The position numbers were made by a program, and so were the translations under genes. From Actinomycetota bacterium (GTDB lineage: Bacteria; Actinomycetota; Rubrobacteria; Rubrobacterales; Rubrobacteraceae), in the NCBI GenBank assembly GCA_004563715.1, contig SIRX01000012.1, forward strand, positions 1-59,928: DNA of 59,928 nt. Direction: 5' to 3'. The notes under the pieces are model-generated. The model was not told the DNA's origin. It ran no database searches and worked only from the letters and a program-made list of their open reading frames with translations. Each line of letters starts with the position of its first letter. The first letter of the stretch is position 1. Of this stretch, positions 3,366 through 35,561 are shown in pieces.

Positions 3366-3574
3366 CACTTTCCTCTTCTTTTTCTTTATCGCTGCTACGT
3401 TTTCAACGCCTTGTATGCAACATAAGAACCGGAGGATCGTTTCCCGGGTGCCACCAAGTCTCCCGTCTCGGGCCGCGGACCCCGCTTCTCGGGGGCATTT
3501 GTGGGCTCATCAGTCGAAGCCTCCCTTTCACGCGCTCTTTGTTACAGGCCATGATCTCCTACCGGGTGGCGCGT

Positions 3575-3620
3575 GCCATCGCGAATATGGGCGATCTTTT
3601 GCTAGCCCAGTTGAGCTAGC
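3575..3620 (-). promoter_or_regulatory. Shared upstream element, copy A
   Basis: First of six related ~44-bp elements upstream of minus-strand genes. On the + strand it reads GCCATCGCGAATATGG, GCGATC, a T-tract, then GCTAGCCCA-GT-TGAGCTAGC. Two dyads are visible: ATCGC-N8-GCGAT and a 7-2-7 inverted repeat (TAGCCCA/TGAGCTA), here extended by GC on both sides. It lies about 210 bases upstream of the paralogue operon. The 7-2-7 layout resembles NarL-family operators. The rest of 3366-3645 holds no gene I can support. Confidence 0.65.
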
Positions 3621-3645
3621 GTCAGCGGTGCCGGCGCGGACAGGA

Positions 3646-4263
3646 TCAGTGCCCGCCGTGGGAACCTTTTTCGTTCTCCCGGTCGCCGCCGTTGTCGTGG
3701 CCTTGGCCCCTGGTGGGCTCTAATTCCAGGACGACCGGCTGCCGGGCGTCGCCGAAGGTAAGCAGGAGGTTCCCGGCTTCCTCGGGGGCCTGGAAGATCA
3801 GGGCTCCCGAGGTCCCGCTACCCGGAGGAAGCGTACCCGCTTCGAGCTGGTGCCGGACCGGACCGGTCTCCGGCACGCCGGCGCCGGAGATCCTGAAGTC
3901 TTCCGCCGAGTAGTCGAGGCTTCCGCCCTCCGGGGCCGCCAGGCTGACCTCCACGGTAAAGCGCCGGAACCCCTCGGGGGCCATGTCCATGCCCATAGAA
4001 GACATGCTCATACCGCTCGCGCCGAACTTGCCCGCCTGCATCGGGGCCATGTGCTCCGGGGTGATGCCGTCAACGCGCAGGAAGCCTCCCGGAACCTCGA
4101 CCGTCTCGCCGACGGCCGCCGGCGGGGCCGGCGCTCCGAGAGAGACCAGAAGGCCCCAGCCGCCGGCGGCCAGCGCCACCAGTACGGCGACGAAGAGCAA
4201 GGCCCCGGCGAACAGGGACCACCGCGCGCGAGGCTCCCCGGTCTCGGACAGCGTGGAGATCAT
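3646..4263 (-). CDS. Membrane-anchored Met/His-rich protein, possibly copper-binding
   Basis: A 205-residue protein of no recognised family. One hydrophobic segment near residues 17-42 makes it a single-pass, outward-facing protein. Three features suggest soft-metal binding: a Met-rich stretch (MAPMQAGKFGASGMSMSSMG, then MDMAPEG), a GHDNGG segment, and the C-terminal ending SHGGH. The rest looks like an Ig/cupredoxin-like beta fold. The start is the ATG at 4263 with AAAGGA eight bases upstream. Shared element B lies 67 bases upstream. Proximity to CopC, CopD and a multicopper oxidase under the same element supports a copper-related role, but this is inference. Confidence 0.7.
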   Translation of the reverse strand: MISTLSETGEPRARWSLFAGALLFVAVLVALAAGGWGLLVSLGAPAPPAAVGETVEVPGGFLRVDGITPEHMAPMQAGKFGASGMSMSSMGMDMAPEGFRRFTVEVSLAAPEGGSLDYSAEDFRISGAGVPETGPVRHQLEAGTLPPGSGTSGALIFQAPEEAGNLLLTFGDARQPVVLELEPTRGQGHDNGGDRENEKGSHGGH

Positions 4264-4329
4264 AAGCTGGATCCTTTCTCTGGCGTCGAACCTCCCGGCC
4301 TACCAATGATCTCTCAGGCCGCCGGGCCT

Positions 4330-4374
4330 GCCATCACGCATACGGGCGATCTTTTGCTAGCCCATTTGGGGTAA
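4330..4374 (-). promoter_or_regulatory. Shared upstream element, copy B
   Basis: + strand: GCCATCACGCATACGG, GCGATC, TTTTG, CTAGCCCA-TT-TGGGGTAA. The first dyad is kept as ATCAC/GCGAT (a G-T wobble in place of G-C). The second keeps TAGCCCA on one side and TGGGGTA on the other. It lies 67 bases upstream of the Met/His-rich protein gene at 3646-4263. Confidence 0.65.
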
Positions 4375-4381
4375 CAGGAAA

Positions 4382-4406
4382 GAGCCAGGAGAATAAGTCC
4401 CGGCTC
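4382..4406 (-). terminator. Rho-independent terminator of the RTX-like gene
   Basis: Minus strand: GAGCCGGGA, loop CTTATTC, TCCTGGCTC (9-bp stem with one G-T pair), followed by TTTCCTGTT. It lies 32 bases past the stop of the gene at 4438, which separates that gene from the unit starting at 4263. Confidence 0.65.
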
Positions 4407-4437
4407 CTTCCCGCCGAAGGCGAACGCTCTCGCCGTT

Positions 4438-4839
4438 CTACCTGCGGACCCTGACGATCTCGCAGTTGTTGGCCACGATGTCCTCGGTGCCGGGGTCGAC
4501 CAGGACGCGATCGCGTCCGGGACCGCAGTTGATCCGGTCGGACTCGCCGCGTCCCGGGTCGCGGGCGTCAATAAAGTCGTTGCCCGCGCCTCCAACCAGA
4601 AGGTCGCTGTCGGGACCACCGACGAGCCTGTCAGGTCCGGCGCCACCGTAGAGCCGGTCGGAGTCTCCCCTACCCAGCAGGGTATCCCCGCCTCCCAAAC
4701 CCCGCAGCACATCATTCTGGGCGGTGCCCACCAGCCTGTCGGGACCGTTGGTGCCCACCAGGTTCAACGCCATCGCGGCGCCCGCGTACATGGCGAGCAT
4801 GAACCCCATCGCCGCGAGGATTATGGTTATTCTCTTCAT
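4438..4839 (-). CDS. Small secreted RTX-like calcium-binding repeat protein
   Basis: A 133-residue exported protein: a signal peptide at residues 1-24, then an array of glycine/aspartate nonapeptides such as GGGDTLLGRGDSDRLYG, GGAGPDRLVGG and GGAGNDFIDARD. This GGxGxDxLx pattern is the hemolysin-type (RTX) repeat that folds as a parallel beta-roll on binding calcium outside the cell. There is no catalytic or type-1 secretion domain, so it is a stand-alone beta-roll. Two cysteines near the C-terminus (NCGPGRDR and NNCEIV) may form a disulfide. The start is the ATG at 4839 with GAAGGGA upstream. It has its own terminator and no copy of the shared element was found in 4840-5044. Confidence 0.8.
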   Translation of the reverse strand: MKRITIILAAMGFMLAMYAGAAMALNLVGTNGPDRLVGTAQNDVLRGLGGGDTLLGRGDSDRLYGGAGPDRLVGGPDSDLLVGGAGNDFIDARDPGRGESDRINCGPGRDRVLVDPGTEDIVANNCEIVRVRR

Positions 4840-5044
4840 CTTTTCCCTTCTCTTTCTCTCCGCTCGTTCCGTCCGAAGTGGTGTCTGGGTATCTGGTCCG
4901 GGTATCTGGTTGTGCTTGCTCGCCTCCTTTCCTCGAAGGACTTGCGGATCCTTGCGGCTCTCGCCGCCGGCACCCGTTCGTGGTGTAACGGTTGGCGGAG
5001 CCTGCGGCTCTCGTGGGTCGGGTATCTCGCCAGCCCCGGGCGGC

Positions 5045-7000
5045 CTACCTGGCGGTAAAGCTCCGGGTAACGGCGTTACCCAGGTGGGTCCGGGTCTTCT
5101 GGACGGCGGCCTGTACGGTGTGCCGGCCCGGCCGGCCGGGCCGGTATGTCGAGCGGTACGCGGAGTTCACGAGCGGCACGGCCTTCTTGAAGACGACCTT
5201 GCCGTTGCGCCGGACCGTGATGCTGACCACGCCGTTTTTCCTGGTGGTGACCCGGCCCGCGATGTCTACGTCGTTTCTGTTTTTTTCGGCGTCCGGTGGG
5301 CTTAGAGACACCTTCGCCTTTACGCTCACCGGCCTGCTGGCCGCCGAGCCCTGGATGCCCCTCTCGCCTCCGTAGCGCACCCGGTAGAGCGTGTTCTTCT
5401 TCGGTTTGAGGCCCCCGAGACGGAACGTGCCGTCGGTGGCGGTGGTCAGCGTTCCGCCGGGAACGGCGCCGAAGTCGGCGGCGCCGGCCGGACGTTGCTC
5501 CAACACCACCCGCTTGCCAGAGAGCGGTTTGCCGTCCGCCGTGAGGCTCCCGGAGAGCTTTGTGGCCGCGCCGTACTCGAGGACTGCGGGGCTTGCCGAG
5601 AGGCTCAGCGAAGACCGGACGACCGCCGCCGCATCCGCCCGGGCCGGCAGGGACTCGTTGCCCAGAGCATCCACCGCCGTCACCTTGTAGAAGGATACCG
5701 AGCCCTTCGGGGCGTTCGCGTCCGAGAAGGATGGCGCGGTGAGCAAGGCGGCGTTGAGCTTGGCGAAGCTGCCCTTTGGGGAGCTGCCCCGGTACACGTT
5801 GTAGCCGGCGAGGTCGCTCTCCGCGTTGCGCGCCCACCGGAGCGCGACGCCTTTCAGCGACCCGCTGGCTTTCAGGCTGGCCGGCGTGAGGGGCGCGGCC
5901 TCGACCTCCGCGCCGTAGACGTTGTAGCGGCCGAAGTTGGGCTCGCCCTGATACTGGGATTCCCAGACGATGACCTCGCCGCTGATCGCCGGGCTCGTCT
6001 GTGGCTCGTTGCTCGCGGCCACCAGGAACGAGTTGCCGGTCTTGAGGTCCCTGGCCCACACCTCGGCCTTGCCGTTGCGGTGGTCCTCCCAGACCACGAC
6101 GGTGCCGCTGATCGCCGGCGACACCTGGTCGGCGGAGGTTCCGGCCGGATCCGGGGTAATCTCGAACACCTTGCCGTTGTGCAGGTCCATACCGTAGAGG
6201 TCCCGGCCGAAGATGGTGTAGTCCGCCACGGCCTCCTGACGCCAGACCACGATGTTACCGCTGATCGCCGGCTGGTCCTGGTACTTGTCGCTGGCGCTGA
6301 CGTGGAACACCTCGCCGGTCGCGAGGTTTTTGGCGTATATGTTGGAGGTGACGGTGCCGTCGGACCGCCGGGTCTCAGCCTGCCAGACGACGATGTCGCC
6401 GCTGATCACCGGGTTGGTGTGGATGCCGCTGCCGGTGATTACGGGCTGTGACGCAGGCGGAGACTGGGAAGTCAGGTCGTGGCTGTAGATCTCCCATTTC
6501 CCGGAGCTGTTCTTGCTCTCCCAGATGAGCGTGTTGCCGCTGACCTCCGGCTTGCGTTGGTCCCCGGGGCCGCCAGCGAGCACGCGCTCCTGGGAGGCGG
6601 AATCGCGGAGGTTCTTGACGTAGATGTCGGAGTGTCCGCCGCGGTCGTCCTCCCACGCCACGGACTTACCGTTGGTGACCGGCTTGCCCCGGAGGCTGAC
6701 GCCGGTGGCGACAAGGGTCTCCTGGCCCGTGGCGAGGTCCTTGGCGTAGATGTTGGAGACGTTGTCCCGGTCGTCCTCCCACACCACCACGCCGCCGCCC
6801 ACGGAAGGCTTCTGTTTGTTGCTGCTGGTATCGGAGACCGGAAACTCCGTTTTCTTCACCTCGGCGTCCGCCGGGGCTGCCCAAAACGCGTACACGGCCA
6901 ACCCGGATACGATGAGCGCGGCCGACAGCAGGCCCAGCATCCCGGACATCTTCCGACGACCCGGCCGCTGCCCGGCTACCGACACCGCGCTGGGTTTCAT
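5045..7000 (-). CDS. Exported TolB-like beta-propeller protein with FN3 and Ig-like domains
   Basis: A 651-residue protein. A hydrophobic segment at about 18-45, ending AAPADA, exports it. Residues ~55-380 contain about seven repeats of ~45 residues with the core [V/I]SG-x-x-[V/I]VW-[E/Q/R] followed by IYAKDLATG-like strands, typical of TolB/WD40-like propeller blades. Next is a fibronectin type III domain (~385-470, with LAGYNVYRGSSPKGSF) and then two Ig-like modules to the C-terminus. The final module (RPGRPGRHTVQAAV ... TRSFTAR) resembles the C-terminal ends of the multicopper oxidase and the subtilase in this cluster. ATG at 7000 follows GGAGAGGCGGG. Shared element C is 124 bases upstream. 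A binding or scaffold role at the surface is likely; no enzyme motif is seen. Confidence 0.8.
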   Translation of the reverse strand: MKPSAVSVAGQRPGRRKMSGMLGLLSAALIVSGLAVYAFWAAPADAEVKKTEFPVSDTSSNKQKPSVGGGVVVWEDDRDNVSNIYAKDLATGQETLVATGVSLRGKPVTNGKSVAWEDDRGGHSDIYVKNLRDSASQERVLAGGPGDQRKPEVSGNTLIWESKNSSGKWEIYSHDLTSQSPPASQPVITGSGIHTNPVISGDIVVWQAETRRSDGTVTSNIYAKNLATGEVFHVSASDKYQDQPAISGNIVVWRQEAVADYTIFGRDLYGMDLHNGKVFEITPDPAGTSADQVSPAISGTVVVWEDHRNGKAEVWARDLKTGNSFLVAASNEPQTSPAISGEVIVWESQYQGEPNFGRYNVYGAEVEAAPLTPASLKASGSLKGVALRWARNAESDLAGYNVYRGSSPKGSFAKLNAALLTAPSFSDANAPKGSVSFYKVTAVDALGNESLPARADAAAVVRSSLSLSASPAVLEYGAATKLSGSLTADGKPLSGKRVVLEQRPAGAADFGAVPGGTLTTATDGTFRLGGLKPKKNTLYRVRYGGERGIQGSAASRPVSVKAKVSLSPPDAEKNRNDVDIAGRVTTRKNGVVSITVRRNGKVVFKKAVPLVNSAYRSTYRPGRPGRHTVQAAVQKTRTHLGNAVTRSFTAR

Positions 7001-7123
7001 AGTACCCGCCTCTCCTCGCTAAAAAGTCCCGGACCCGCTAGGTGCCGTCGCAGCCCCGCCCTCTTCGCGGTGGTCCGTACATAGTGGTTCATACCGGGAA
7101 TGATGGCCCAGAGCGCGGCGGCC

Positions 7124-7168
7124 GCCATCGCGAATATGGGCGATCTTTTTCTAGCTCAAGTGGGCTAA
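7124..7168 (-). promoter_or_regulatory. Shared upstream element, copy C
   Basis: + strand: GCCATCGCGAATATGG, GCGATC, TTTTTC, TAGCTCA-AG-TGGGCTA. The first 22 bases are identical to copy A, 3.5 kb away. It lies 124 bases upstream of the propeller-protein start and downstream of the oxidase terminator. Confidence 0.65.
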
Positions 7169-7190
7169 CGGGCTAGCGCCCGTGGAAAAG

Positions 7191-7229
7191 CGGTAAGGTG
7201 TGGCCCGGCGGCCGGGCCACACCTTACCG
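7191..7229 (-). terminator. Strong terminator overlapping the stop codon of the multicopper oxidase
   Basis: An 18-bp perfect stem (CGGTAAGGTGTGGCCCGG and its complement) with a 3-base loop. On the minus strand it is followed by CTTTTCC. The oxidase stop codon (7224-7226) lies inside the first arm, so termination is built into the end of the gene. Confidence 0.85.
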
Positions 7230-10200
7230 GGTTACCCTGAACTCCTTCGCCGGGCTCTTGCTGGGGCGGTGGTCGCGGTCTCCGGCGAAGCTCGCCCGTA
7301 CCGTGTAGACCCCGGGGGGTCCGGCCTTGTGACGGAAGCTGTAGCGGGAGTTCTTGAGCGACAAGGATCTGTTGACGACCGTCTGCCCGCCGCGCTTGAT
7401 GACCAGCTTGACCTTACCCCCGTGCCGGGGCTTCACCGCGCCGGAGAGGGTAACGATCCGTCCGCGCTTTACGGAGGCGGAGGACGACTTCAAGGAGACC
7501 GCGGACTTTGCCTTTGCCGGGCTCGTCGCAGAGGTCTCCAGGGGCATGAGCGGATGATAGCTGCTGGCCAGCGGGTTGTCCGGGCTGCGTAGCGGTGAGG
7601 GACTCAGCGCGGCCGCGGCCGACGGCCGCGTGTAGACCCGCATGAGGCCCCACAACCCGCCCGAGAGGTTGTGCCGGTACATCCCGTCGGCGTACCGGTA
7701 GTCGCCCGCGTAGCCGTTGCCCGCGCTTCTGAGGTGGACGTTGAGCGCCCGGCTGACGCTCATGCCGCCCTGCACGGCGACCCGGGGCGAGCCGGGGTCG
7801 CCGGGGAAGACGTTCCAGGCGTGGCCGAGCTGCTCGAAGGAGTGCTGGCGCTGCTTATCCGCGCCCTGCAGCACCCGCATCCGCACCCGGTCTCCGGCGT
7901 AGGCCCGGAATACCGGGGTGTCCGGGTCGCCGTGCACCCGGGAGCTGTACACGTTGGCCATCTCCCGGCCGTTCATCGGGTTTGCAGCCGTGGCCTCGCC
8001 CGCCTCCCGGCCGCCGAAGCGGTGCCGGAACTGGGCGGTGCCGTAGTTAAAGCCCTTCTCGCCCTGGTCTATGTGGTCGTTGGCCTGGCCGGGCGGCTCG
8101 TTCGGGTCGGAGGACTCCTCGATGGGCGCACCGGACCTGTCCCGGAGGTTCAGGCCGTCCTGGAAGAAGGCCGTGAACTCGCGGAAGTCGTTGTTCTTGC
8201 CCGGCACCCGGATGTCGGCGGAGACGCCGCTCTGGATCTTCTTGCCCGTCAGCGGGTCGTGGTAGGTAGCGCCCTTGGGCTCTATGGTGAGCCCGGCGAA
8301 GAGGCCGTGGTGGCGGTGGGCCCGCACGTCGCCGAAGTCGGTGAGGTTGATGGTCCCGAGCTCGCCGTCGGCGTACCAGCGGTAGAGCCTGGACTCGTCG
8401 GGGCCGACCGTCTGGTCCCGGTTGTAGCCGACCGCCGTGCCGTCGGAGCCGCGCACGTCGTACTTGACGAGTTGCGGGTTGAGCGAGACCCGCAGGCCGG
8501 CCCTGGTGCCCGTGTCGGGCTCCAGCGGCGGTTGGGCGTCGCCGTCGGTTCCGGCGTTGCCGTGCCTCAGGAAGTTGGAGGTGAGCTTGTTGGTGAGACG
8601 CACCTCGATGCAGTCGCCCGCGTTGGCCCGGAGCACCATCGGCTCGGTCTTCTTCTCCGCCCGGACGCGGGCCACCGTCTGGTTGGCGGTCTCGCCGGGA
8701 CGGGATAGGGCATAGATCAGGCCGTAGGGATCGTTGTCGCCCTGCTTGTTGTAGACGAGCTTTTTCTCCAGGGCCACGACGCTGAACTTCCTGGTCGGCG
8801 CCCCGACTTTGCACGGGTTGCCGGGCGAGCTGGACCCGGGCGGCGTAACCGCGCTGGGCGTGGGGGCCTGGGGTCCGGCCGGCGGCACGTTGTCCGGCAG
8901 GGGCAGGAGCGAGGGGACCCGGCTGCCGCGGGCCCGCAGGATGCCCCACATGCCCATGTACAGGTCGTCCACGTTCTGGCTGGAGTAGAGGTAGTCCCCG
9001 ACGCAACTCTCGGCGTTGGCCCCGCACTCTATCTTCGGGACCCTGAAGTTGAACGCCTCGGAAATGCCGACGTCCTGGGAGGCGACGAGCGGCGACCGGG
9101 GATCTTCGACGTCCTCGCGCCAGCGCATGCCGTTTATGGAGAAGGTGTGCTGGTGCTCCTGGGAGCCCTGGATCAGGCGCACCTGCACCGGGTCTTCGGC
9201 GTAGGCTTCGAGCACCGGGGTGGCCGGGTCGCCGTGGACCGTGGAGCTGAAGACGTGCGCCGGGTCCGTGCGCTGGCCGTCCCGGTCTTGGCGCAGCGGG
9301 AACGGCGCGTTGCGGTAGTTGATGCCCACGATGCCCGGGTCCTCGTCGGGGTAGCTCTCCGGCGCGTTCGGGCCGACGAACACGTCGTTACGGTTCGCCG
9401 GGTTGCCGCCCGCCCGCGTCAGAGACACGAAGTCCTGGTAGGCGAGGCCGTACTCGCGGAAATCGTCCCTGGCCCCAGGGCCGATCACGTCCATCGCCGC
9501 CCCCGCCGCGTCGCCCTCGCAACCCTGGGCCGCGGGGCAGTTCGGGGCGCCGGGGACGTTGCCGTTGCCGGGCTGGTAGAACTCACCCGTCCTGGGGTTG
9601 CGGAAGTTCATGCCCGCGGGCTCGACGAGGAGGCCGGCGAACTGCCCGCGGTTCTGGTCTATGGCCGGGAAGTGGTGGTCGTGGGAGAAGGCCGTGCGCA
9701 GCTCGTAGTCCGCGTACCAGCGCTCGCGGATGGTCTGCCCCGGTTGCACCCCGCCGCTCCACGAGGGGTTCCAGGTCGCAGGGTTCGGGAGCGTGCAGCC
9801 GTTCGCTTCGTCACAGCTCCTCTGGCCGCTGGCGACCTGCCGGTTGAAGTTCATCTGCTCCTCGGTAAAGGCGGCCTGCTGGTAGTTCCAGCCGTTGGAA
9901 GCCCCGTCGGAGGCGAGCACGTCGAACTTCACCAGGTGGATGTGCTGGCCCATCATGTTGGTCTGGGTCAACCGGACGAAGGCGTCGCCGCCGAACCAGT
10001 TGGGGAGCAGGTTCGTGAGGTTGAAGTTCACGCAGTCGCCCGCGTTTACCCGCACGAAGAGCGGCTCGGGCTGGTTTCTGTAGGAGCCGTTGGGGTTCCT
10101 GGCGAGCATCCGGGGCACGTCCTTGTCGAGGACGAGGAAACGGCCCTGGGTGTCGTGCCAGCCGGCTTCGTTGTACACGATGTCGCGCTGCATGACGGAG

Positions 10201-12845
10201 ACGTTGTAGGTAACCTCGCGGGCCCCCGGCGGGCAGGGGTCGGCGAACGGGGCTCCGGGCTCGCCCAGGGAGCCGCCGTTGCTGCGCCGCCGCACCTGCT
10301 CCTCGACCTCCAGCTTCTCGGCGAGCCGCTTCTCCAGGGGATCGGTGAGGTCGAGCTGCGCCGGGTCGAGGGCCTTGCCGGCCACGACCCGGGTCGCCGC
10401 GACCTTCTGGTCGGGGTTGTTGGGATCGGGCTCCTGTACGCTGCCCGGCGGTTGGGGCGCCCGCCAGCCGTACTCGCCGGGGATAAAGCGCGGGAAGCCG
10501 GGGTTGTCCACCGTGGGCCGGGGCGGGGCCGTCCTGTCGGGGAGCTTCACGAGCTGGCGGACCTTCGTGCCGTCGGGAGTCTTTCCGGTGCCGTTCTCGT
10601 ACACGTCGTGCACCCGCAGGAGCGACCAGAAGCCCTCGGCGAAGTGCGGGTAGAGGTGGCAGTGGAAGATAGAGTCCCCGAAGGTACCCGGCTGGCTGCC
10701 GGCCCCGTAGAGCAGGTCGGCGGTGAACGTCTCGCCCGGCCCGAAGGTCTGGGAGTCGAGGGTGGAGGAGTTGGGGTTCCTGGGGTTGAAGGTCGCCTTG
10801 TCCTTAGGGTTGGCGAGCCACTGGTGGGCGTGGAGGTGGAAGACGTGCGTCTCGGCCACGCCGGCCATGGCGTACCGGATCTTGGTCGGGTCCCCGACGT
10901 AGGAGTGGGTGACGTTGGCCACGTAACAGGAGCCCTTGCCCGCGAGCTTCGCCTCCAGGCCGCAGTCCTCCCGGCCCGGCTCCCAGGGGCTCTCCCGGGT
11001 CGCCTTGCCGCTGGCGAGCTTTACGAGGGACGGGTCGCCGTAGCCCCAGGAGGAGAGAGAGACCTCTTCCCCGAGGCCGTCGGCCGGGAGCCGGCCGGCT
11101 TCCTCCCGGTTGCGCTGCGGCTCGGTGCCGTAGTTGAAGCCGTGGCCCACCAAGCCGGGCTGGACCTCGTTGTAGTCCTGGGCGAGCTGCACGCTCTCCC
11201 GGAAAGAAGCGGCGCCCACCGGGCGGATGTCCGCGTCCACGTAGGGGTCGCCGCTGGACTTGGTGACCCGGGTGTGGTTCGTGGTCCCGTTGTAGAGCGG
11301 CTGGCCGGTCTCCGGGTCGGTCCACCGGGAGCCCGCAGGCTCGACCGCCACCGCGCCGTAGAGGCCGTGGGCGTTGGATCCGGCATCCTCCTCCTCGCCG
11401 CTGGTCATCGTCTGGCTGCGGAACAGGTGGAGGCCCTCCTCGTTCGGGGCCTGCCAGAAGTAGGTGGTGGACTGGCCGATGCCGACCGTCGTGTCCTTGT
11501 TGAAGCCCACCGCGCCGCCGTCAGAGGTCTTGGCGTCGTAGGCCATGCCGCGCACCTGCATGGAGGCCCGCGGGTTCACCAGCCGCCCGCTCCACTGGGT
11601 CGGGCTCAGCTCGTTTTTGAAGTTGATCTTGATGCACTCCCCGGCGTTGGCCCGCAGGATGAGGGGCCGGGGACGCAGACGCCGGTTTCCGGCTGGGTCA
11701 TCAGCCGCGTTGGCTGCGAGCGGCCGGAACCAGTTTTTGGTGGCCAGCTTGTCGCCCTGGAGCACGTAGACCTGGCCGTCGGGGTCGAGGTCGCCCCAGC
11801 GGTTGAAGGGTATGGCCACGTTGACGGCGGCCACGCTGTACGAGCGGTCGTAGGAGGCGGCGGAGCACGCCGGCGCGGCCTGGGCCTCGGCCGGCCGCGA
11901 GAAACCTTCGAAGAAGCCCAGCCCGAAAACGACCGCTACCGCCGCCGCCAGCCCGGCGACGACGGCGGCGGTCCGGGGCCGCCAGAAGCCCACGACCTTC
12001 GGCTCCTCCCACGGCAGCCCGCGCAGGGCGGCGAAGCCGAGCAGGATCAGGAAACCCGCGCCGAGCACCGCGCCCGCGTCGCCCAACGCCTGCGCCAGGA
12101 AAGTTTCCGGCGTGGTGTGCCGCATGGCGAGGCCGTTCGTGGGGACGCTCAGGACACCATAAGCGGCCGCGAGGCCGAGCGCCCAAACGACGTTGGCGGA
12201 GAGGCCGTCCCGGAGCCCGGAAGCGGCGACGGCCCGCCGGGCCAGCGGGGAGACCGACCAGACGACGAGCCCGGAGAGCGGTAGGGCGAGAACCGAGACC
12301 CAGGCCCAGTGCAGCAGGGGAGCGGGGGCGTGGGCCTCGGGCATCCCCGCGTGAAGCGCGTGCAGCACCGCGCCGGTCCCAAACGCCAGGAGCGTGGCCG
12401 GCAAGAGGTAAGCGCGGGTGGAGGAGAAGCCCCGGGCGAGGGCCAGCAGCAACAAGACCAGCGCCAGCTCCGAAGCCGTGGCGGAGATACCGAGGGCGTC
12501 GACCGGATGCGCCTCGCCCGTGTGCGGCCCGAGCGGCAGGCCCGCCGTGTGCATCGAGACGAAGAGTGAGATCAACGCCAGGTTGCCGGCCACACCGGCG
12601 AGCAAGAGCCGCCGTTCCGGCCAGCGCAGGAGGACCACCCCGTAGAGGCCCTGGGCGAGCGCCACAAAGAGGAAAAAGAAGCCGTAGCCCCACCACTCCC
12701 CGAGGTGGTCGGGCACTACCCAGAGGTGGATCATGGCCGCCGCCAGGGAGAGCGCGGCGGCCGGGTAGATCGCCAGCTCCAGGCCCAGGCCGGCGCCCAG
12801 GTGCCGGGCTACGCTCGTCCTGGAACTGCTCGGCGCTGTCGTCAT
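7224..12845 (-). CDS. Giant multicopper oxidase fused to an N-terminal membrane domain
   Basis: A protein of about 1,873 residues. Residues 1 to ~315 form a polytopic membrane region with many histidines near its helices (MIHLWVVPDH, SMHTAGLPLGPHTGEAH, HALHAGMPEAH). The remainder is a chain of cupredoxin-like domains. Visible copper motifs (approximate residues) are HLHAHQW (667), FHCHLYPHFAEGFW (725, type-1-like Cys), GQHIHLVKFD (965), SHDHHFP (1052), QEHQHTFSING (1228), RAHRHHGLF (1503) and KQRQHSF (1660). The last ~90 residues are an Ig-like module. Ligand pairs spread over many domains recall six-domain or manganese-oxidase (MnxG-like) enzymes, so oxidation of a metal ion or organic substrate outside the membrane is likely; the substrate is unknown. 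An in-frame ATG exists upstream at 12950, but ATG 12845 has GGAGG nine bases before it and is preferred. Element D lies 70 bases upstream and CopC/CopD are adjacent. Confidence 0.85.
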   Translation of the reverse strand: MTTAPSSSRTSVARHLGAGLGLELAIYPAAALSLAAAMIHLWVVPDHLGEWWGYGFFFLFVALAQGLYGVVLLRWPERRLLLAGVAGNLALISLFVSMHTAGLPLGPHTGEAHPVDALGISATASELALVLLLLALARGFSSTRAYLLPATLLAFGTGAVLHALHAGMPEAHAPAPLLHWAWVSVLALPLSGLVVWSVSPLARRAVAASGLRDGLSANVVWALGLAAAYGVLSVPTNGLAMRHTTPETFLAQALGDAGAVLGAGFLILLGFAALRGLPWEEPKVVGFWRPRTAAVVAGLAAAVAVVFGLGFFEGFSRPAEAQAAPACSAASYDRSYSVAAVNVAIPFNRWGDLDPDGQVYVLQGDKLATKNWFRPLAANAADDPAGNRRLRPRPLILRANAGECIKINFKNELSPTQWSGRLVNPRASMQVRGMAYDAKTSDGGAVGFNKDTTVGIGQSTTYFWQAPNEEGLHLFRSQTMTSGEEEDAGSNAHGLYGAVAVEPAGSRWTDPETGQPLYNGTTNHTRVTKSSGDPYVDADIRPVGAASFRESVQLAQDYNEVQPGLVGHGFNYGTEPQRNREEAGRLPADGLGEEVSLSSWGYGDPSLVKLASGKATRESPWEPGREDCGLEAKLAGKGSCYVANVTHSYVGDPTKIRYAMAGVAETHVFHLHAHQWLANPKDKATFNPRNPNSSTLDSQTFGPGETFTADLLYGAGSQPGTFGDSIFHCHLYPHFAEGFWSLLRVHDVYENGTGKTPDGTKVRQLVKLPDRTAPPRPTVDNPGFPRFIPGEYGWRAPQPPGSVQEPDPNNPDQKVAATRVVAGKALDPAQLDLTDPLEKRLAEKLEVEEQVRRRSNGGSLGEPGAPFADPCPPGAREVTYNVSVMQRDIVYNEAGWHDTQGRFLVLDKDVPRMLARNPNGSYRNQPEPLFVRVNAGDCVNFNLTNLLPNWFGGDAFVRLTQTNMMGQHIHLVKFDVLASDGASNGWNYQQAAFTEEQMNFNRQVASGQRSCDEANGCTLPNPATWNPSWSGGVQPGQTIRERWYADYELRTAFSHDHHFPAIDQNRGQFAGLLVEPAGMNFRNPRTGEFYQPGNGNVPGAPNCPAAQGCEGDAAGAAMDVIGPGARDDFREYGLAYQDFVSLTRAGGNPANRNDVFVGPNAPESYPDEDPGIVGINYRNAPFPLRQDRDGQRTDPAHVFSSTVHGDPATPVLEAYAEDPVQVRLIQGSQEHQHTFSINGMRWREDVEDPRSPLVASQDVGISEAFNFRVPKIECGANAESCVGDYLYSSQNVDDLYMGMWGILRARGSRVPSLLPLPDNVPPAGPQAPTPSAVTPPGSSSPGNPCKVGAPTRKFSVVALEKKLVYNKQGDNDPYGLIYALSRPGETANQTVARVRAEKKTEPMVLRANAGDCIEVRLTNKLTSNFLRHGNAGTDGDAQPPLEPDTGTRAGLRVSLNPQLVKYDVRGSDGTAVGYNRDQTVGPDESRLYRWYADGELGTINLTDFGDVRAHRHHGLFAGLTIEPKGATYHDPLTGKKIQSGVSADIRVPGKNNDFREFTAFFQDGLNLRDRSGAPIEESSDPNEPPGQANDHIDQGEKGFNYGTAQFRHRFGGREAGEATAANPMNGREMANVYSSRVHGDPDTPVFRAYAGDRVRMRVLQGADKQRQHSFEQLGHAWNVFPGDPGSPRVAVQGGMSVSRALNVHLRSAGNGYAGDYRYADGMYRHNLSGGLWGLMRVYTRPSAAAALSPSPLRSPDNPLASSYHPLMPLETSATSPAKAKSAVSLKSSSASVKRGRIVTLSGAVKPRHGGKVKLVIKRGGQTVVNRSLSLKNSRYSFRHKAGPPGVYTVRASFAGDRDHRPSKSPAKEFRVTR

Positions 12846-12914
12846 ACGGACCGTCCTCCGCTCTTTGACTCTCCGGGTGGTGCAAGGTGAATAATGGACC
12901 CGGCGGACCCCACC

Positions 12915-12959
12915 GCCATCGTAAATATGAGCGATCTTTGCGTAGCCCAAGTGGGCTAG
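12915..12959 (-). promoter_or_regulatory. Shared upstream element, copy D
   Basis: + strand: GCCATCGTAAATATGA, GCGATC, TTTGCG, TAGCCCA-AG-TGGGCTA. The 7-2-7 inverted repeat is perfect here. The first dyad is ATCG/CGAT with a slightly longer loop. It lies 70 bases upstream of the multicopper oxidase start. Confidence 0.7.
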
Positions 12960-13026
12960 AGCCCCCGCTATAAGGCGAGGGAAGGCGGTTTAGAGAGGTC
13001 GGATCCGGCTAGTCTCGAGGCACGCC

Positions 13027-14028: not shown

Positions 14029-14032
14029 GGCC

Positions 14033-14593
14033 CTACCGCCTCCGCAGCATCAGGCCCCCCAGGGCCAGCGCGCCCAGCGCGAGCGCCCCGATCCCCAGTA
14101 CCGCGTATAAAGCGGTGGAGGCCGCGCCGCGCTCCGGGCCGGACGATGAATCGCCGCCCGACGCCGGCTCTTCCGAACCTGTTCCCTCGTCCTCCGCGAC
14201 CGCCGGCTCCGAACCGGAGCGGGCGCTGAACTGGTAGGAGCCTTCTATGACGTGCCCGTCGACGCCCGTGTAGCGGTACTCGGCCGTGTAGGAACCCGCG
14301 GGCAGGCCGTCCTTCAGGTCTACCATCAGGGTGGTGGGGGCATCCGGGTCTACCCGCGCGTTGTCCTCGTCCACCCGCCCGCCCGCCTCGTCGTAGACTT
14401 GTAGCGGGCTGAACTCAGCCTCCACCGGCTCCTCCAGGAAGAGCTGTACCCGCTCGGGCACCGTCTCCAACTCCTCTCCCGGCTCCGGCGCGGACCTTAC
14501 GATCTGCGTGTGGGCCGTGGCAACACCGGCGGCGCCCAACAGCAAACCCCCGGCCAGAAACACAGCCGCTATTATGATAGTAGCACGCAACAC
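14033..14593 (-). CDS. copC: CopC domain copper-binding protein with C-terminal membrane anchor
   Basis: A 186-residue protein. The signal peptide ends VATA and the predicted mature protein begins with His (HTQIVRSAPEPGE), the N-terminal histidine that, with a second His, forms the copper 'histidine brace' in CopC. The second conserved His lies in DGHVIEGSYQF. The beta-sandwich spans to about residue 125, then an acidic Ser/Gly linker and a transmembrane helix (YAVLGIGALALGALALGGLM) ending RRR, so copper binding occurs at the outer face. Start GTG 14593 has GGAGG six bases upstream; an ATG further upstream (14647) has no comparable site. It overlaps functionally with copD directly downstream. 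Confidence 0.9.
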   Translation of the reverse strand: MLRATIIIAAVFLAGGLLLGAAGVATAHTQIVRSAPEPGEELETVPERVQLFLEEPVEAEFSPLQVYDEAGGRVDEDNARVDPDAPTTLMVDLKDGLPAGSYTAEYRYTGVDGHVIEGSYQFSARSGSEPAVAEDEGTGSEEPASGGDSSSGPERGAASTALYAVLGIGALALGALALGGLMLRRR

Positions 14594-14704
14594 AGAGTGC
14601 CTCCCTCCTGGCTCCGGCCGTCGCAACCAGTTTGCCACCGGTGGCATGGAATCGCGTCCCTCATTTGGGCTATTTTTCTTTTTCGGCCGTTCATCGCGCG
14701 GCGT

Positions 14705-17377
14705 TTACCGCACGGTGAAGTGCCGGGGGCGGCTCTTGGTGGCGGCGTGGTTCTCGCCGGTGTGGTATGCCCTTACGCGCCACCGTCCGGGGCGGTTCAG
14801 CGCGGGGCGCGCCGCGTACCTCGTGTAGCCTTCGTACTCGAAGTTCCGGGTCTTTACTGATTTTTCGAGCCGCCACCGGCCCCCCTCGCGGCGGAAAAAG
14901 TCCAGCCGGGTCACGCCCGCCTGATACGGCCTCAGGTAACCGCTGACCTCGAAGCTCCTGGACGCTCTCACCCTCGCGGGCGTCGAGGGCCGCGAGAGCC
15001 GGACCTTCGCCCGGACCCCGACCCTCGGGGAGGATGCGGCCTCGAAAAAGGCGTCGCCGGCAAAGCGGAACTGGAAGGCCGTATTGGCCGTGAGCGTGCG
15101 GGAAGCCCGGTACTCGCCCGAGGTCCGGTCGTAGGCGGCAAGCCCATCCTTTTTCCAGCTCCGGCCGCCGTCCGTGGAGCGCCACACCTCGACGCGCCGG
15201 GCGGCGAGCTTTCCGGAGGGGCCGCGTAACCCGCCGGTAAGCCGCGTCTTTCCCCGGTATTCGACGAGCTTCCTGGACGCCCCTAGGACCAGCTTCGTGG
15301 TGGCCGGCGGAAGCATCTCCAGCGCGGCGGCCGCGTCGAGACGCCCCCCCGCGGCCGTTTTGCCTTGAAAAGCCGGTTTCTTCTCTGCGGAGCCGAGGAT
15401 AGCGGCCTTCAAGGTCCCGTAGCCGACGGAAGGGGCGTGAGATCGGAGCAGCGCCGCGGTACCGGCGACGTGCGGGGCGGCCATCGAGGTCCCGCTCATG
15501 GTCGCGTACGCTTCGTTCTCCTCGACCGAGAGGAGCGCCGCCGTGGCCGTGGCCGAGTACCCGAGCCGGTCCACGTACCGGGTGTAGGAGGCGCCGTCCC
15601 CTCCGGAGAGCTCGTAGCGGTCGTCGGGGCCGAAAGGCCCGTCGCCCATACCGGCGACCGCGGCGGGATCGTAGTCGTCGTCTACCAGGACGGCGCCGAG
15701 CCGGCCCCGGTAGAACGGCGTCGGGGTTGATCTCGGCCTCCCGCCGCCGATGTCGTAGCCGAGGTCCTGGCCCATCAGGAGCAGCTTTCCGCCGCCTCCC
15801 AGGTGGGTTTCGAGGCCAGCCTGATCGGCGGGGCGCAGGGTGTCCGTGTACGTGGCCCCCGTAAACCAGACGACGGTCTTGCCGGACATCGCCGCGGTGT
15901 CCGGGCCGTCGGCGCCCGGCGCCACGGTCTCGGTCGCAACGTCGGTAAAACCTAGGGCTGCGAGAGCCTGTTCGTAGTAGGCTTCATGGTCCGCGCCACC
16001 GTCGTCGTCGACCAGCAGGACGGGGGTGGCGACGGTCGTCTCCAGGCCGCCGAGCGCCCGGGCGAGAAAGCTCCGGCGGCCGGCGGGGGTGGAGATCTGC
16101 TCGAGCCCGAACCCCGCGTAGATCGAAGCCCCATCCACCCGGACGGCAACGGGGACGCGGGTCGGCCGGGGCAGCGCGGTGGAGAGGACGCCCGCCCCGG
16201 GGGCCGCCAAGTCTACCGAGGTAACCCCGAAGTTCGAGAAGTCGGCCAGCCCATCCCCCTCGTCGCTGGCGGCCACGGAGATTATGTTGTCGCCGTCGTA
16301 GGAGGCGGGGTAGAAAGGCGCGGCGTCCGCGTCGTCACCGACCTGGTCCGGACCTCCATTGCCCGCCGGAAAGACAAAGAGGACGCCTTTGCCCCGGGCG
16401 GCCTCGATGGCGTCGCGCTCCGCCCGGCTCTCCTGCCCGCCGCCCAGGCTGGCGTTGACGACCTTTACGCCTCTGGCGGTCGCGTATCCAAAAGCGTTTA
16501 TCATGGCGAGCGAGGAGCAGGTCTGGTCCTCGCCGCAAACTTTGAGCGGCATAATCCTGGCCCCTGGCGCGACGCCCGAGATGCCACGCCCGTTGTTCGC
16601 GGTGGCCGCGATGATGCCCGCGACGTGGGTGCCGTGCTCCTCGCCTTCCACCCCGTCGTACACGCTGGCGTCGCCGTTCGCGAAGTCCCAGCCGTGCACG
16701 TCGTCCACGTACCCGTTGCCGTCGTTGTCCCGCCCGTCACCGGGCACCTCCCCGGGGTTGGTCCAGATCCGGCCCCTCAAGTCCGGGTGGCCCGTGTAGA
16801 CACCGGTATCCACCACGGCTACCACGTTCGGGGCCGTGCCGGTAGTCGCCGTCCAGGCTTCGAGCGCGTTTATATCGGCGCCTCCGACCGCCGTCCGGCC
16901 TCCTCCGGTGTTGTGCAGGTTCCACTGCCGGTGGAAGAGCGGGTCTCCGGGCGGCGTCGCCGCCGGGCGTCGAATAAAGTCCGGCTCGGCGTACTCCACG
17001 GCGGGGTCTCGCGCGTAAGCGGCGGCCACGGCTTCCACCGGACGGGACGGGGAGAACTCGACCACCTCGATACCCAGGGCGGGCAGCTCCTCCCCGGTGC
17101 GGGCACGGAGACGCCGGTTGGTGGCTTCCAGGTCTTTGTCTCCGGCGGTCTTTACCAGCAGCCGGCCGGTAACGAACTCCTCGTCCGGGGCCGCGCCGAC
17201 CGTGGAAGACGGCCGGTCCGGGACATCGTCCGTGGGCGGCTCTTCCTGCGCCCCGCCGGAGGAAGACAAAACCAGGATCAGCGTCGCGGCGACGAGCAAG
17301 GCCGCCAGCGTCCCGCGCGCCCTTCTCCCCGGGGTTTGCGATTCCGGCTGTAGAGGTTCTGATCCGGCAAGCTGCAT
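14705..17377 (-). CDS. Secreted subtilisin-like serine protease (S8) with Ig-like C-terminal modules
   Basis: An 890-residue protease precursor. After a signal segment (ALLVAATLILVLSSSGG, about 24-42), a propeptide-like region precedes the catalytic domain. The catalytic triad is visible: Asp190 in VVAVVDTGVYTGHPDL, His248 in EEHGTHVAGII, and Ser631 in GTSMAAPHVAG. The oxyanion-hole Asn sits in PAGNGG. The His-Ser distance (383 residues) is far above the ~155 usual for the family. The insert (about 400-580) holds a domain with VLLVDDDGGADHE and KLLLMGQDLGYDIGGG, resembling a flavodoxin- or amidotransferase-like fold. The C-terminal ~200 residues are two Ig-like modules ending RHFTVR. ATG 17377 is 28 bases after the pseudo-receiver gene, so probably the same operon. 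Confidence 0.9.
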   Translation of the reverse strand: MQLAGSEPLQPESQTPGRRARGTLAALLVAATLILVLSSSGGAQEEPPTDDVPDRPSSTVGAAPDEEFVTGRLLVKTAGDKDLEATNRRLRARTGEELPALGIEVVEFSPSRPVEAVAAAYARDPAVEYAEPDFIRRPAATPPGDPLFHRQWNLHNTGGGRTAVGGADINALEAWTATTGTAPNVVAVVDTGVYTGHPDLRGRIWTNPGEVPGDGRDNDGNGYVDDVHGWDFANGDASVYDGVEGEEHGTHVAGIIAATANNGRGISGVAPGARIMPLKVCGEDQTCSSLAMINAFGYATARGVKVVNASLGGGQESRAERDAIEAARGKGVLFVFPAGNGGPDQVGDDADAAPFYPASYDGDNIISVAASDEGDGLADFSNFGVTSVDLAAPGAGVLSTALPRPTRVPVAVRVDGASIYAGFGLEQISTPAGRRSFLARALGGLETTVATPVLLVDDDGGADHEAYYEQALAALGFTDVATETVAPGADGPDTAAMSGKTVVWFTGATYTDTLRPADQAGLETHLGGGGKLLLMGQDLGYDIGGGRPRSTPTPFYRGRLGAVLVDDDYDPAAVAGMGDGPFGPDDRYELSGGDGASYTRYVDRLGYSATATAALLSVEENEAYATMSGTSMAAPHVAGTAALLRSHAPSVGYGTLKAAILGSAEKKPAFQGKTAAGGRLDAAAALEMLPPATTKLVLGASRKLVEYRGKTRLTGGLRGPSGKLAARRVEVWRSTDGGRSWKKDGLAAYDRTSGEYRASRTLTANTAFQFRFAGDAFFEAASSPRVGVRAKVRLSRPSTPARVRASRSFEVSGYLRPYQAGVTRLDFFRREGGRWRLEKSVKTRNFEYEGYTRYAARPALNRPGRWRVRAYHTGENHAATKSRPRHFTVR

Positions 17378-17405
17378 TCCACCACCCGGCGCGTTCTCGG
17401 CCCGG

Positions 17406-17744
17406 CTATCCGGCCTCGGCCGCGCGGTCCACGCGGTCGATCACGGAGAGCAAGTCTGCCAACTGGACGTCTTCTTTCGTTGTACGCCGCCCGCGGACGT
17501 TGATCATCGCGTGAGGCTCGCAGTCCGGGTAGAGCTCCACCCAGACCGGGATGCGGTCCTCTACCAGCTCGGTGAGGTGCGAGGTGATTACCACGTCGGG
17601 GAGCAGCCTCCGGACCTCCAGGTCCAGGTACCAGGCCCCCGCCTCGAAGACCTCCACGTCGGGACGCAGCTCCCGCAGAACCGCGGCCACGGCTTCTTTG
17701 TAAGACTTGAGATCGCTGGCTACCAGCACTCGCGTGTTGCCCAT
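17406..17744 (-). CDS. Small receiver-like protein lacking the phospho-acceptor Asp (paralogue 1)
   Basis: A 112-residue soluble protein resembling a CheY-type receiver in outline: first strand TRVLVASD, helix SYKEAVAAVLREL, strand VEVFEA and strand PDVVITSH. The position where a receiver has its phosphorylated Asp is Thr-Ser-His, so it is probably a pseudo-receiver. The C-terminal half has two blocks shared with the next gene: WVELYP and TKEDVQLADLLSVIDR. The function is unknown; a sensing or protein-interaction role is inferred. Start ATG 17744 lacks a clear ribosome binding site. Shared element E lies 34 bases upstream and the protease gene follows 28 bases downstream. Confidence 0.7.
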   Translation of the reverse strand: MGNTRVLVASDLKSYKEAVAAVLRELRPDVEVFEAGAWYLDLEVRRLLPDVVITSHLTELVEDRIPVWVELYPDCEPHAMINVRGRRTTKEDVQLADLLSVIDRVDRAAEAG

Positions 17745-17777
17745 GCAGAAGATGATAGTCAGGACGCGGTTGCGGGC

Positions 17778-17820
17778 GCATCGCGAAAACTGGCGATCTT
17801 TTTCTAGCTACGTTGGGCTA
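17778..17820 (-). promoter_or_regulatory. Shared upstream element, copy E
   Basis: + strand: GCATCGCGAAAACTGGCGAT, then CTTTTTC, TAGCTAC-GT-TGGGCTA. The first dyad ATCGC-N8-GCGAT is perfect although the loop bases differ from other copies. The stop codon of the upstream gene (17804-17806) lies inside it. It sits 34 bases upstream of the gene at 17406-17744, whose probable operon continues through the protease and perhaps copC-copD. Confidence 0.65.
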
Positions 17821-18157
17821 GACGCCGGGTTTGATCTATTATGGAGAGGAGATCTGGTAGCTGGATGTCGTCGTAGGTGGTGTGCTCTTCTCCGACACAG
17901 GAGAACGACTCCGTCCCATAGCCCGGATAGAGCTCCACCCAGGCCGGAACCCGGGAGCGCACCGCCGGGGAGACCCGGTTGCCGACCACCACGTGAGGGC
18001 GCAACTCTTCGACAAGGCTCTCCAGCTCCTCCGGCTCAGCAGCCACGATCCGGGCCTGCGGCCGTAGCGCGCGCACAGCCTCCGCTATAACCTCTCGGTA
18101 GGAGCGCGGCTCGTTGGCCATTATGACGACGACCTTATCTGAGGGACATCGAGCCAA
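17804..18157 (-). CDS. Small receiver-like protein lacking the phospho-acceptor Asp (paralogue 2)
   Basis: A 117-residue paralogue of the next gene downstream. It starts with a receiver-like strand (KVVVIMANEP), helix SYREVIAEAVRAL, then VEELRPHVVVGNRVSP, where Gly-Asn replaces the usual acceptor Asp. The C-terminal half carries WVELYPGYG and TTYDDIQLPDLLSIID, nearly the same as its neighbour. The start is TTG 18157 with GGCAGG upstream; the first strand would be lost if the next ATG (18121) were used. The stop codon lies within shared element E. Nothing recognisable lies in 18158-18329. Confidence 0.68.
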   Translation of the reverse strand: MARCPSDKVVVIMANEPRSYREVIAEAVRALRPQARIVAAEPEELESLVEELRPHVVVGNRVSPAVRSRVPAWVELYPGYGTESFSCVGEEHTTYDDIQLPDLLSIIDQTRRLAQRS

Positions 18158-18329
18158 GAGAACCTGCCGCTGCTAACCGTCCGTACCGGAAGACCGGAAG
18201 GAATAATCAGTATCGAACAACCTTACCTGAGATTCTAGCATCGTTAGGGCGGCAGAGCACCGCGTTTTCTGGTGTCTTTGCGCGCCACGCCCAGCCAGAC
18301 ACGTGGTCGCCGGATCCGGCAACGCTTAC

Positions 18330-19040
18330 CTAGCGGATCTCGATGACCCCGTGACGCACCGCGAAGACTAGCGCCTGGAGCCGCGAGTGGACGCCGAGCT
18401 TGTTCAGGATGTTGACCATGTGGGTACGCTCGGTCTCGACGGTAATGTGCAGGTTCTCGGCGATCTCCTTGCTGTCCATGCCCGTGGCCAGCGCCTGGAG
18501 CACCTCCTTTTCGCGGCGGGTCAGCTTCTCAATGGCCTGGCGCGCGTCCATCTCCTCCTGCCGCTTGCGGCTCACCGTCCGGAGCATCTGGATCATCTCG
18601 TTCGGCGAGAGCAAGGCCTGGCCGTTTCTCAGCCGCCGCACCGCGTCCACGATCTCGCCTATGGAGGCGCTCTTGTGCAACACGCCGGCGGCCCCGGCCT
18701 CGACCGCGCTGGCGAAGCGCGCGGGCTCCAGGCTCGCACTCAGCACCAGGGTAGCTATCCTGGGCTCGGAAGAAGAAAACTCTTCCACCAGCTCGATGCC
18801 GTCTCCGTCGGGCAACCCGAGGTCCACGACCGCCACGTCCACGCCGTTCTTGGCTACCCGCGCCTCGCTCACAGACCCCGCCTGGGCGATCACGCTGAAC
18901 TCCGGCTCACGCTCGAACATGAACGCCAGGGCCTGGCGAAACGAAGCGTGGTCTTCGACAAGCAGGATGTTCGCCGTCTGCTCTTCCACCTGTCCCTCGG
19001 TTATCTCGATTTTTCCGTGTAGTGTCTTAGCTTCACCCAT
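18330..19040 (-). CDS. NarL/LuxR-family response regulator
   Basis: A 236-residue regulator. The receiver domain covers residues ~24-140: NILLVEDH with the acidic pair, the phospho-acceptor Asp in VAVVDLGLPDGDG, and a Lys in LHKSASIGE. A linker precedes the GerE/LuxR helix-turn-helix at ~170-232 (LTRREKEVLQALATG, SKEIAENLHITVETERTHMV, NILNKLGVHSR), which binds DNA as a dimer. It is preceded by two sensor kinases on the same strand, the likely phospho-donors. A diverged copy of the shared element lies 31 bases upstream, suggesting autoregulation. NarL-family proteins use 7-2-7 inverted repeats, so this protein is the best candidate to bind the shared element (inference). Confidence 0.92.
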   Translation of the reverse strand: MGEAKTLHGKIEITEGQVEEQTANILLVEDHASFRQALAFMFEREPEFSVIAQAGSVSEARVAKNGVDVAVVDLGLPDGDGIELVEEFSSSEPRIATLVLSASLEPARFASAVEAGAAGVLHKSASIGEIVDAVRRLRNGQALLSPNEMIQMLRTVSRKRQEEMDARQAIEKLTRREKEVLQALATGMDSKEIAENLHITVETERTHMVNILNKLGVHSRLQALVFAVRHGVIEIR

Positions 19041-19070
19041 TCCGTATTATGGCTCTCCGGCCGACGCCAT

Positions 19071-19114
19071 TCCATCATACAGATGTACCAATTTATAGTA
19101 GCCCAAACGAGCCA
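19071..19114 (-). promoter_or_regulatory. Shared upstream element, diverged copy F
   Basis: Aligned without gaps to the consensus of copies A-E it matches at about 26 of 44 positions by eye. It keeps CCATC at the left and TAGCCCA-AA-CGAGCCA at the right with identical spacing, but the inner GCGAT dyad has decayed. It lies 31 bases upstream of the response-regulator start, close to the 34-base spacing of copy E. Confidence 0.45.
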
Positions 19115-35264: not shown

Positions 35265-35561
35265 CTAAGCGCGTCGAAGAACCCTGACGTACGCTATCCC
35301 GGCAAGCCCCACGGCCAGCAAGACGGCGCCGAGCATCACCGGCGACACGCCACCGGTATCGGGAAGATCGTCGTGGTCGGCATGCTCGTGGTCGGCGTGG
35401 TCGTGGTCATGGTCGTGGTCATGGTCGTGGTCGGCGTGGTCGTGGTCGTGGGCTGCGTGGTCGTGGTCATGGTCATGGTCGTGGTCGTTCGCCAGCGCGG
35501 CCGGCGCGGAAAGCGCCATAACCATCATAGCCAACAAGGCCAGAAAGAGCATCCGCTTCAA
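35265..35561 (-). CDS. Secreted His/Asp-rich protein with LPXTG-like wall anchor
   Basis: A 98-residue protein. A signal peptide (MLFLALLAMMVMALSAPAALA) is followed by ~45 residues made almost only of His, Asp and Ala (HDHDHDHDHAAHDHDH pattern), then LPDTGG, a hydrophobic helix (VMLGAVLLAVGLAGIAYV) and a basic tail RVLRRA. LPxTG-helix-basic tail is the sortase cell-wall sorting signal. The His/Asp tract should bind Zn, Ni, Cu or similar ions, so metal storage or capture at the wall is inferred. ATG 35561 follows AGGAGG. The upstream 250 bases contain an AT-rich pocket (35634-35670), unlike the surroundings, which may hold a promoter or metal-regulator site. Confidence 0.85.
   Translation of the reverse strand: MKRMLFLALLAMMVMALSAPAALANDHDHDHDHDHAAHDHDHADHDHDHDHDHDHADHEHADHDDLPDTGGVSPVMLGAVLLAVGLAGIAYVRVLRRA
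35371..35489 (-). repeat. Short tandem repeat coding for the His-Asp tract
   Basis: On the + strand, irregular repeats of GTGGTC and ATGGTC hexamers run for about 119 bases. They encode alternating His and Asp on the minus strand. Such repeats are prone to slippage in steps of two residues, so tract length may vary between strains. Confidence 0.8.

Follow-up and report, generated by a model that had tools for sequence, protein, structure and literature searches.

A two-box element with a fixed -10 hexamer as the predicted operator of a copper-protein regulon in Rubrobacteraceae

The window analysed here, the whole of a 59,928-nucleotide stretch (contig SIRX01000012.1, assembly GCA_004563715.1) from an Actinomycetota bacterium of the family Rubrobacteraceae, carries five copies of a 44-bp palindromic element, at 3575, 4330, 7124, 12915 and 17778. 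An initial annotation had placed these copies in a single orientation, each 5' of a minus-strand gene, and this is borne out by a pattern search of the window, which returned exactly five matches, with none in 100 shuffles. On the minus strand, which is the coding sense here, every copy follows the same order: TAGCYCA-N2-TGRGCTA (0-2 mismatches), an A-tract, a block beginning with AAAGATCGC, and GATG at the end. The palindrome and a T-tract had both been described as conserved. The former is exact at 3603, 7152 and 12943 but departs from the pattern once at 4358 and twice at 17805; the latter is present and, in gene direction, is the A-tract separating two boxes, here termed site I and site II.

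All five copies lie on the minus strand. Copy 1 (3551..3618) has site I at 3603-3618, site II at 3578-3595, a GATCAT -10 hexamer at 3551-3556 and a predicted start near 3544; its predicted target is an exported Fn3/CHB_HEX_C protein (1947-3368), probably together with the paralogue at 490-1917. In copy 2 (4306..4373), site I (4358-4373) holds the single mismatch, site II occupies 4333-4350, and GATCAT at 4306-4311 gives a predicted start near 4299, the predicted target being a Met/His-rich anchored protein (3646-4263) with no Pfam match. Copy 3 (7100..7167; site I 7152-7167, site II 7127-7144, -10 CATCAT 7100-7105, predicted start near 7093) is predicted to serve a propeller-like exported protein (5045-7000) whose PD40 match falls under the cut-off. 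For copy 4 (12891..12958; site I 12943-12958, site II 12918-12935, -10 CATTAT 12891-12896, predicted start near 12884), the predicted target is a giant multicopper oxidase of about 1870 aa (7224-12845). Copy 5 (17752..17820) combines a site I with two mismatches (17805-17820), site II at 17780-17797 and a TATCAT hexamer (17752-17757) that is 1 bp out of the usual register. Its predicted targets are a receiver-like protein (17406-17744), whose predicted start adjoins the ATG at 17744, so that the mRNA would be leaderless, and then a subtilase (14705-17377). The earlier description of the downstream units as secreted or copper proteins thus needs amending for the fifth, which opens with a small receiver-like protein and not with an exported one. 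A further site I-like palindrome, TAGCCCAAATGAGGGA, is found at 14657-14672, close upstream of copC, with no -10 in register.

The element is not confined to the window. Its right half, searched as a pattern allowing up to 3 mismatches, occurs at 19 places in the source genome compared with 2 for the reversed control, and at four places on other contigs the palindrome stands in the same register. Genes downstream of these extra copies encode an exported protein (C83), a relative of it that is also exported but has a broken reading frame (C107), signal peptidase I (lepB, start uncertain; C141) and a multicopper oxidase whose Tat-like leader, SRKDxLK, is a putative Tat signal (C17). The C107 target (L019:1755-2175, G000:C107) looks frame-shifted relative to its C83 relative, through either an assembly error or decay to a pseudogene. 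A sequence-only model of the nine copies, R1, matched at E <=1 in 34 of 60 genomes, comprising 28 of the 36 Rubrobacteraceae and 6 of the 24 genomes outside the family, with a best E of 0.027 among the latter. An extended model, R2, matched 28 of 39 family genomes at E <=0.01; when applied under stricter filters to 296 sampled genomes of the phylum, it matched 19 at E <=0.001, and all 19 were Rubrobacteraceae. The wider search suggested by the initial annotation has therefore yielded further in-register copies in the source genome and in part of the family. Among the papers listed for Rubrobacter(aceae) on multicopper oxidases, regulons, response regulators and copper two-component systems, none describes the element in its title or the start of its abstract.

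The comparative work below draws on 60 of at least 62 R1 matches of >=24 bits (G011:C444, which carries the -10 hexamer, and G023:C1:672587 were left out), and 59 of the 60 were kept for profiles after removal of one near-duplicate. In a wider set, 77 listed matches were put in register and the 71 of >=19 bits were assigned a target. The alignment for R2 (A4) took 49 of 50 copies picked for having the -10, leaving out G000:C33; because this choice biases R2 towards the hexamer, R2 was not used to prove it.

The 59-copy profile is sharply bounded, from -9 to +34 about the centre of the first palindrome, and resolves into two boxes. Site I, TAGCCCA-N2-TGGGCTA, is strong and distal, while site II is a weaker 7-2-7 box centred 24 bp downstream; both consist of inverted heptamers 2 bp apart, as in operators of the NarL/LuxR family. 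The NarL heptamer itself is TACYYMT. When the matrix of the first palindrome was slid along the 60 copies, mean scores were highest at offset 0 (20.3), with a second peak at exactly +24 (1.2). Offset +14 came next, at -9.6, and the upstream baseline was -27.0 (standard deviation 8.6). At +24, 98% of copies scored >= -15, compared with 8% of baseline positions. Sites I and II match the one matrix unequally. Given the second peak, the ATCGC-N8-GCGAT dyad is better interpreted as another 7-2-7 site, weaker than the first. The comparative data here favour the view, already proposed in the initial annotation, of a NarL-type regulon operator that is composite with a second dimer site.

The same annotation had held that the stem of the dyad is kept while its loop varies, and this did not survive. 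Across the 60 copies, the inner pairs 19/30 and 20/29, as well as 18/31, pair no better than shuffled columns (p 0.15, 0.59 and 0.32, respectively), and for the outer pairs 17/32 and 16/33 the result is marginal (p 0.04 and 0.056). These figures bear on the idea of a structured RNA leader, or of a mobile repeat resembling repetitive extragenic palindromes, to which we give almost no credence. Many similar palindromic copies in one genome are what such a repeat would produce, yet the copies are intergenic, 63 of the 71 have the same orientation relative to a gene ahead of them, and their distance to the -10 is constant; moreover, the 2-nt loop of the palindromes cannot form a hairpin. Scattering inside genes or at random intergenic sites had been named as marks of a mobile repeat; copies inside genes or in random orientation were not seen among the 71. 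An RNA leader was also rejected on an Rfam scan of the window, which gave no match at gathering scores, and on the lack of clear covariation in the inner dyad pairs.

Downstream of the two boxes stands a third fixed feature. An xAnnnT hexamer of the CATCAT type begins at position 55 in 50 of the 60 copies (expected, 2.6) and is 1 bp off in 8 more, giving 58 of 60 within 1 bp; in genomes other than the source, it begins there in 41 of 49 copies. Model R1 ends at position 39, and the hexamer therefore lies outside the model that found the copies. The copies are partly homologous and so not independent, although the genes downstream belong to several unrelated families. With the start taken 7 nt after the hexamer, site II is centred at about -42.5 and site I at about -66.5. 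No -35 box is present, the -35 region being occupied by the end of site II. Because the -10 is fixed in position, the element is predicted to lie upstream of the start and not within the mRNA. In the receiver-like targets, the start codon falls at position 67-69 in 11 of 12 genomes (distances 32-34; G031 uncertain), 7-9 nt after the hexamer, and these mRNAs are therefore probably leaderless.

The position of the hexamer also bears on whether the conserved blocks could themselves be a promoter core. The NNNGAT block was considered as a sigma-70 -10 and rejected, its second position being G in 44 of 59 copies and the xAnnnT hexamer standing 20 bp further down. Very improbably, in our judgement, GCGATG could serve as the -10 of an alternative sigma-factor promoter, for example of the WhiG/flagellar type, with the conserved block as its core. 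The blocks AAA and CGAT do recall the TAAA and GCCGATAA boxes of that class, and Rubrobacter has WhiG promoters, described with mapped starts and at type IV pilus genes (PMC8325347); for R. radiotolerans RSPS-4, starts have been mapped genome-wide in that study. Against this, sigma boxes leave the two 7-2-7 palindromes unexplained, and another -10-like hexamer stands at a fixed place 20 bp further down. Flagellar-type boxes would, moreover, be spaced more widely than AAA and CGAT in the element. The TAAA and GCCGATAA boxes, as given there, are not matched by the 59-copy consensus, and the WhiG/flagellar candidate was set aside; the element resembles the WhiG class in being a promoter class of Rubrobacter and differs in sequence and layout.

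Taken together, the layout is likely that of an activator-dependent promoter resembling those of DevR and NarL. A study of DevR (DosR) in Mycobacterium tuberculosis describes promoters whose strong and weak sites stand close together, with the proximal site overlapping the -35 element, along with cooperative binding and autoregulation (PMC3029386). As there, the candidate regulator here belongs to the NarL subfamily of response regulators, and a strong and a weak site are packed closely, with the proximal one predicted from the fixed -10 to cover the -35 region and the second close upstream. The two systems differ in box sequence, lineage and targets (hypoxia and dormancy for DevR, copper and exported proteins here), and the cooperativity described for DevR would apply here only by analogy. 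At the Escherichia coli ogt promoter, two 7-2-7 sites for NarL lie at -44.5 and -77.5, and activation is possible from -67.5 as well (PMC7419079). A NarL-type protein and paired 7-2-7 sites would be common to both cases, while the predicted centres at -42.5/-66.5, the use of one fixed layout for a whole regulon and the TAGCCCA box are particular to the present element.

With regard to targets, a called same-strand gene follows within 320 bp in 63 of the 71 copies, and a same-strand gene start lies within 130 bp of 39 of them, compared with 235 of 4259 random positions; no copy overlaps a called gene by more than 4 bp. Gene starts come from a simple purpose-written caller and are uncertain where they differ from the longest open reading frame (e.g., lepB of C141 and the G031 gene). 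Recurrent targets in several genera are giant and smaller multicopper oxidases, the Met/His-rich anchored protein, propeller and Fn3-type exported proteins, signal peptidase and the receiver-like protein. In several genomes, copies precede many units of one island. The exported copper-protein island of G020 (C1:205000-260000) and of G023, Rubrobacter marinus (C1:2667000-2698600), comprises kinases, the regulator, the receiver-like gene, CopC/CopD-like genes, multicopper oxidases, propeller proteins, the Met/His-rich protein and its own signal peptidase, with giant multicopper oxidases of up to about 2090 aa. The CopC/CopD-like labels were tested with Pfam in the window and rest on resemblance outside it; ten G020 genes were also given a Pfam scan. 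The window also encodes, at 35265-35552, a small and perhaps metal-binding protein made up of Asp-His repeats (DHDHDHDHAAHDHDH...).

Beside copy 5 lies the gene that the initial annotation had singled out as the possible regulator, and synteny, co-occurrence and boxes before its own gene all make it the best candidate. It encodes a 236-aa response regulator with receiver and GerE (LuxR/NarL) domains by Pfam (18330..19040, minus strand), and its product would bind the element. Next to it, also on the minus strand, are a candidate cognate kinase (19172..22198; receiver, PAS repeats, HisKA_3, HATPase), whose PAS repeats and HisKA_3 domain we take to fit a partner of the NarX/DesK type, and a second kinase (22093..24036; CHASE, HisKA, HATPase). 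Orthologues of the regulator with >=70% identity occur in ten other genomes, together with a 74% fragment in G018, and in all 11 an element copy lies just downstream of the orthologue, before a receiver-like gene. Excluding the source genome, orthologue and strong element co-occur under R1 (E <=1e-6, 35 genomes: both 8, element only 2, orthologue only 3, neither 22; p = 2.6e-4) and R2 (E <=1e-8, 38 genomes: both 10, element only 3, orthologue only 1, neither 24; p = 6e-6), with p-values that overstate independence because genomes and copies are related. The contrast holds within genera, as in G023 versus the other members of g3 and G015 versus G003 in g4.

The regulator gene is itself preceded by a sixth, partial copy (19046..19114, minus strand), with site I TGGCTCGTTTGGGCTA at 19099-19114, no recognisable site II and a CATAAT -10 at 19046-19051. 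This points to putative autoregulation, with a leaderless mRNA if the ATG at 19040 is used. More generally, a site I-like box (shuffle p <=0.025) precedes the own gene of 9 of 12 orthologues, compared with 1 of 20 paralogues (Fisher p = 7e-5), and that single paralogue (G023, 2697404) is next to the island of R. marinus. The boxes do not all lie at one position. The count began with 22 of 30 regulator loci, to which G005, G033, G029 and G016 were later added with G018 and five paralogues; it leaves out loci L130, L134, L139 and L141. The probable recognition helix, HIT.ETERTHMVNIL, is common to seven of the eight orthologues printed, the eighth reading NVTVETERTHMVNIL, and the 14 paralogues printed differ.

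Two paralogous receiver-like proteins accompany the regulator and recur near its orthologues: the copy 5 target at 17406-17744 and a second at 17804..18157 (minus strand), between the regulator and copy 5, the 3' end of which overlaps site I of that copy. By eye, they share an invariant W-x-ELYP motif and have no acidic residue at the usual phospho-acceptor place. Their structures were predicted with a pLDDT of 92. These small proteins had no match in a Pfam scan, and Foldseek returned nothing at E 0.001, the best hit being HypX (3.3e-3), with partial receiver matches (DesR, 7.5e-3). Their receiver-like identity is therefore tentative.

Given what was computed, namely the repeat with its pair of boxes, a -10 in fixed position, recurrent targets and co-distribution, the element is probably the activator-binding half of a complete promoter that coordinates a copper-protein regulon through a NarL-family regulator. 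A phosphorylated response regulator, most likely the 18330-19040 product, would bind site I as a dimer; a second dimer would bind the weaker, proximal site II; and the two together would recruit RNA polymerase to a CATCAT-type -10 with no -35 partner. The regulon so coordinated would take in the recurrent targets above and, in most genomes having it, the regulator itself. The identity of the binding protein, activation, cooperativity, phosphorylation and the signal are all inferred, with the known systems as precedent for dimer binding at both boxes and for polymerase recruitment.

Several observations weigh against this account. Strong elements are found in the absence of a 70% orthologue in G007 and G016 (both models) and G024 (R2), and orthologues accompany weaker elements in G029 (both models) and in G027 and G033 (R1 only); the relatedness of genomes and copies noted above counts here as well. 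The own-gene boxes of G025 and G027 lie close to the -10, a better fit to repression, and the 24-bp spacing of the two sites does not correspond to an integral number of helical turns. No called gene lies downstream of eight of the 71 copies, and two weak matches of the later set start inside a called gene. Finally, a hydrophobic N-terminus is little more frequent among the targets (35 of 63) than among genes in the loci (158 of 344), and since so many locus genes pass as well, the score does not speak for export; the targets would be exported judging by their protein families and by leaders seen by eye.

A second class of sites raises the chief rival, which we nonetheless regard as unlikely: that two regulators are involved, with the 18330-19040 product reading site I and a more widespread NarL-type paralogue reading site II and promoters that have site II only. 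The site II-only box AAATCACTCATTTGnGnGATG occurs 77 times in 25 of 39 family genomes, its reversed pattern not at all (a few of the 77 are two-box copies; examples are G012:C74:6186-6206, G008:C1:552258-552278 and G000:C95:19617-19637, among loci L225-L254). Of the 30 examined, 15 have a -10-like hexamer beginning at position 55 and 13 have one beginning at 56 (expected, 1.1 each), the same spacing as in two-box copies or 1 bp more, and some occurrences are in genomes lacking a 70% orthologue. The right half of site II also departs most from site I. On the other hand, site II of two-box copies (ATCGC, GCGAT) differs from the site II-only class (ATCAC, GTGAT), and the site I matrix scores site II far above background. 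A broader, still doubtful possibility is that Rubrobacteraceae have a lineage-specific promoter code, with a 7-2-7 box at about -42.5 in place of the -35 element and paralogous NarL-type regulators each reading a dialect (TAGCCCA + ATCGCCCA here, ATCACTCA elsewhere); in the present regulon, leaderless receiver-like proteins would then feed back on the regulator.

The one-regulator account sketched above treats the regulon as new and its promoter as one of a known kind. A repeat that had no name becomes a predicted regulon with base-level positions for starts, regulator and targets. It does so in a family with little literature on gene regulation, judging by the Rubrobacter(aceae) titles and abstract starts listed. 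Among the carriers of the element is Rubrobacter marinus SCSIO 52915, a named strain whose genome is complete. Exported proteins that have no known role, giant multicopper oxidases among them, are joined in one predicted co-regulated system and, because they are so linked, the inducing signal could show what the system does.

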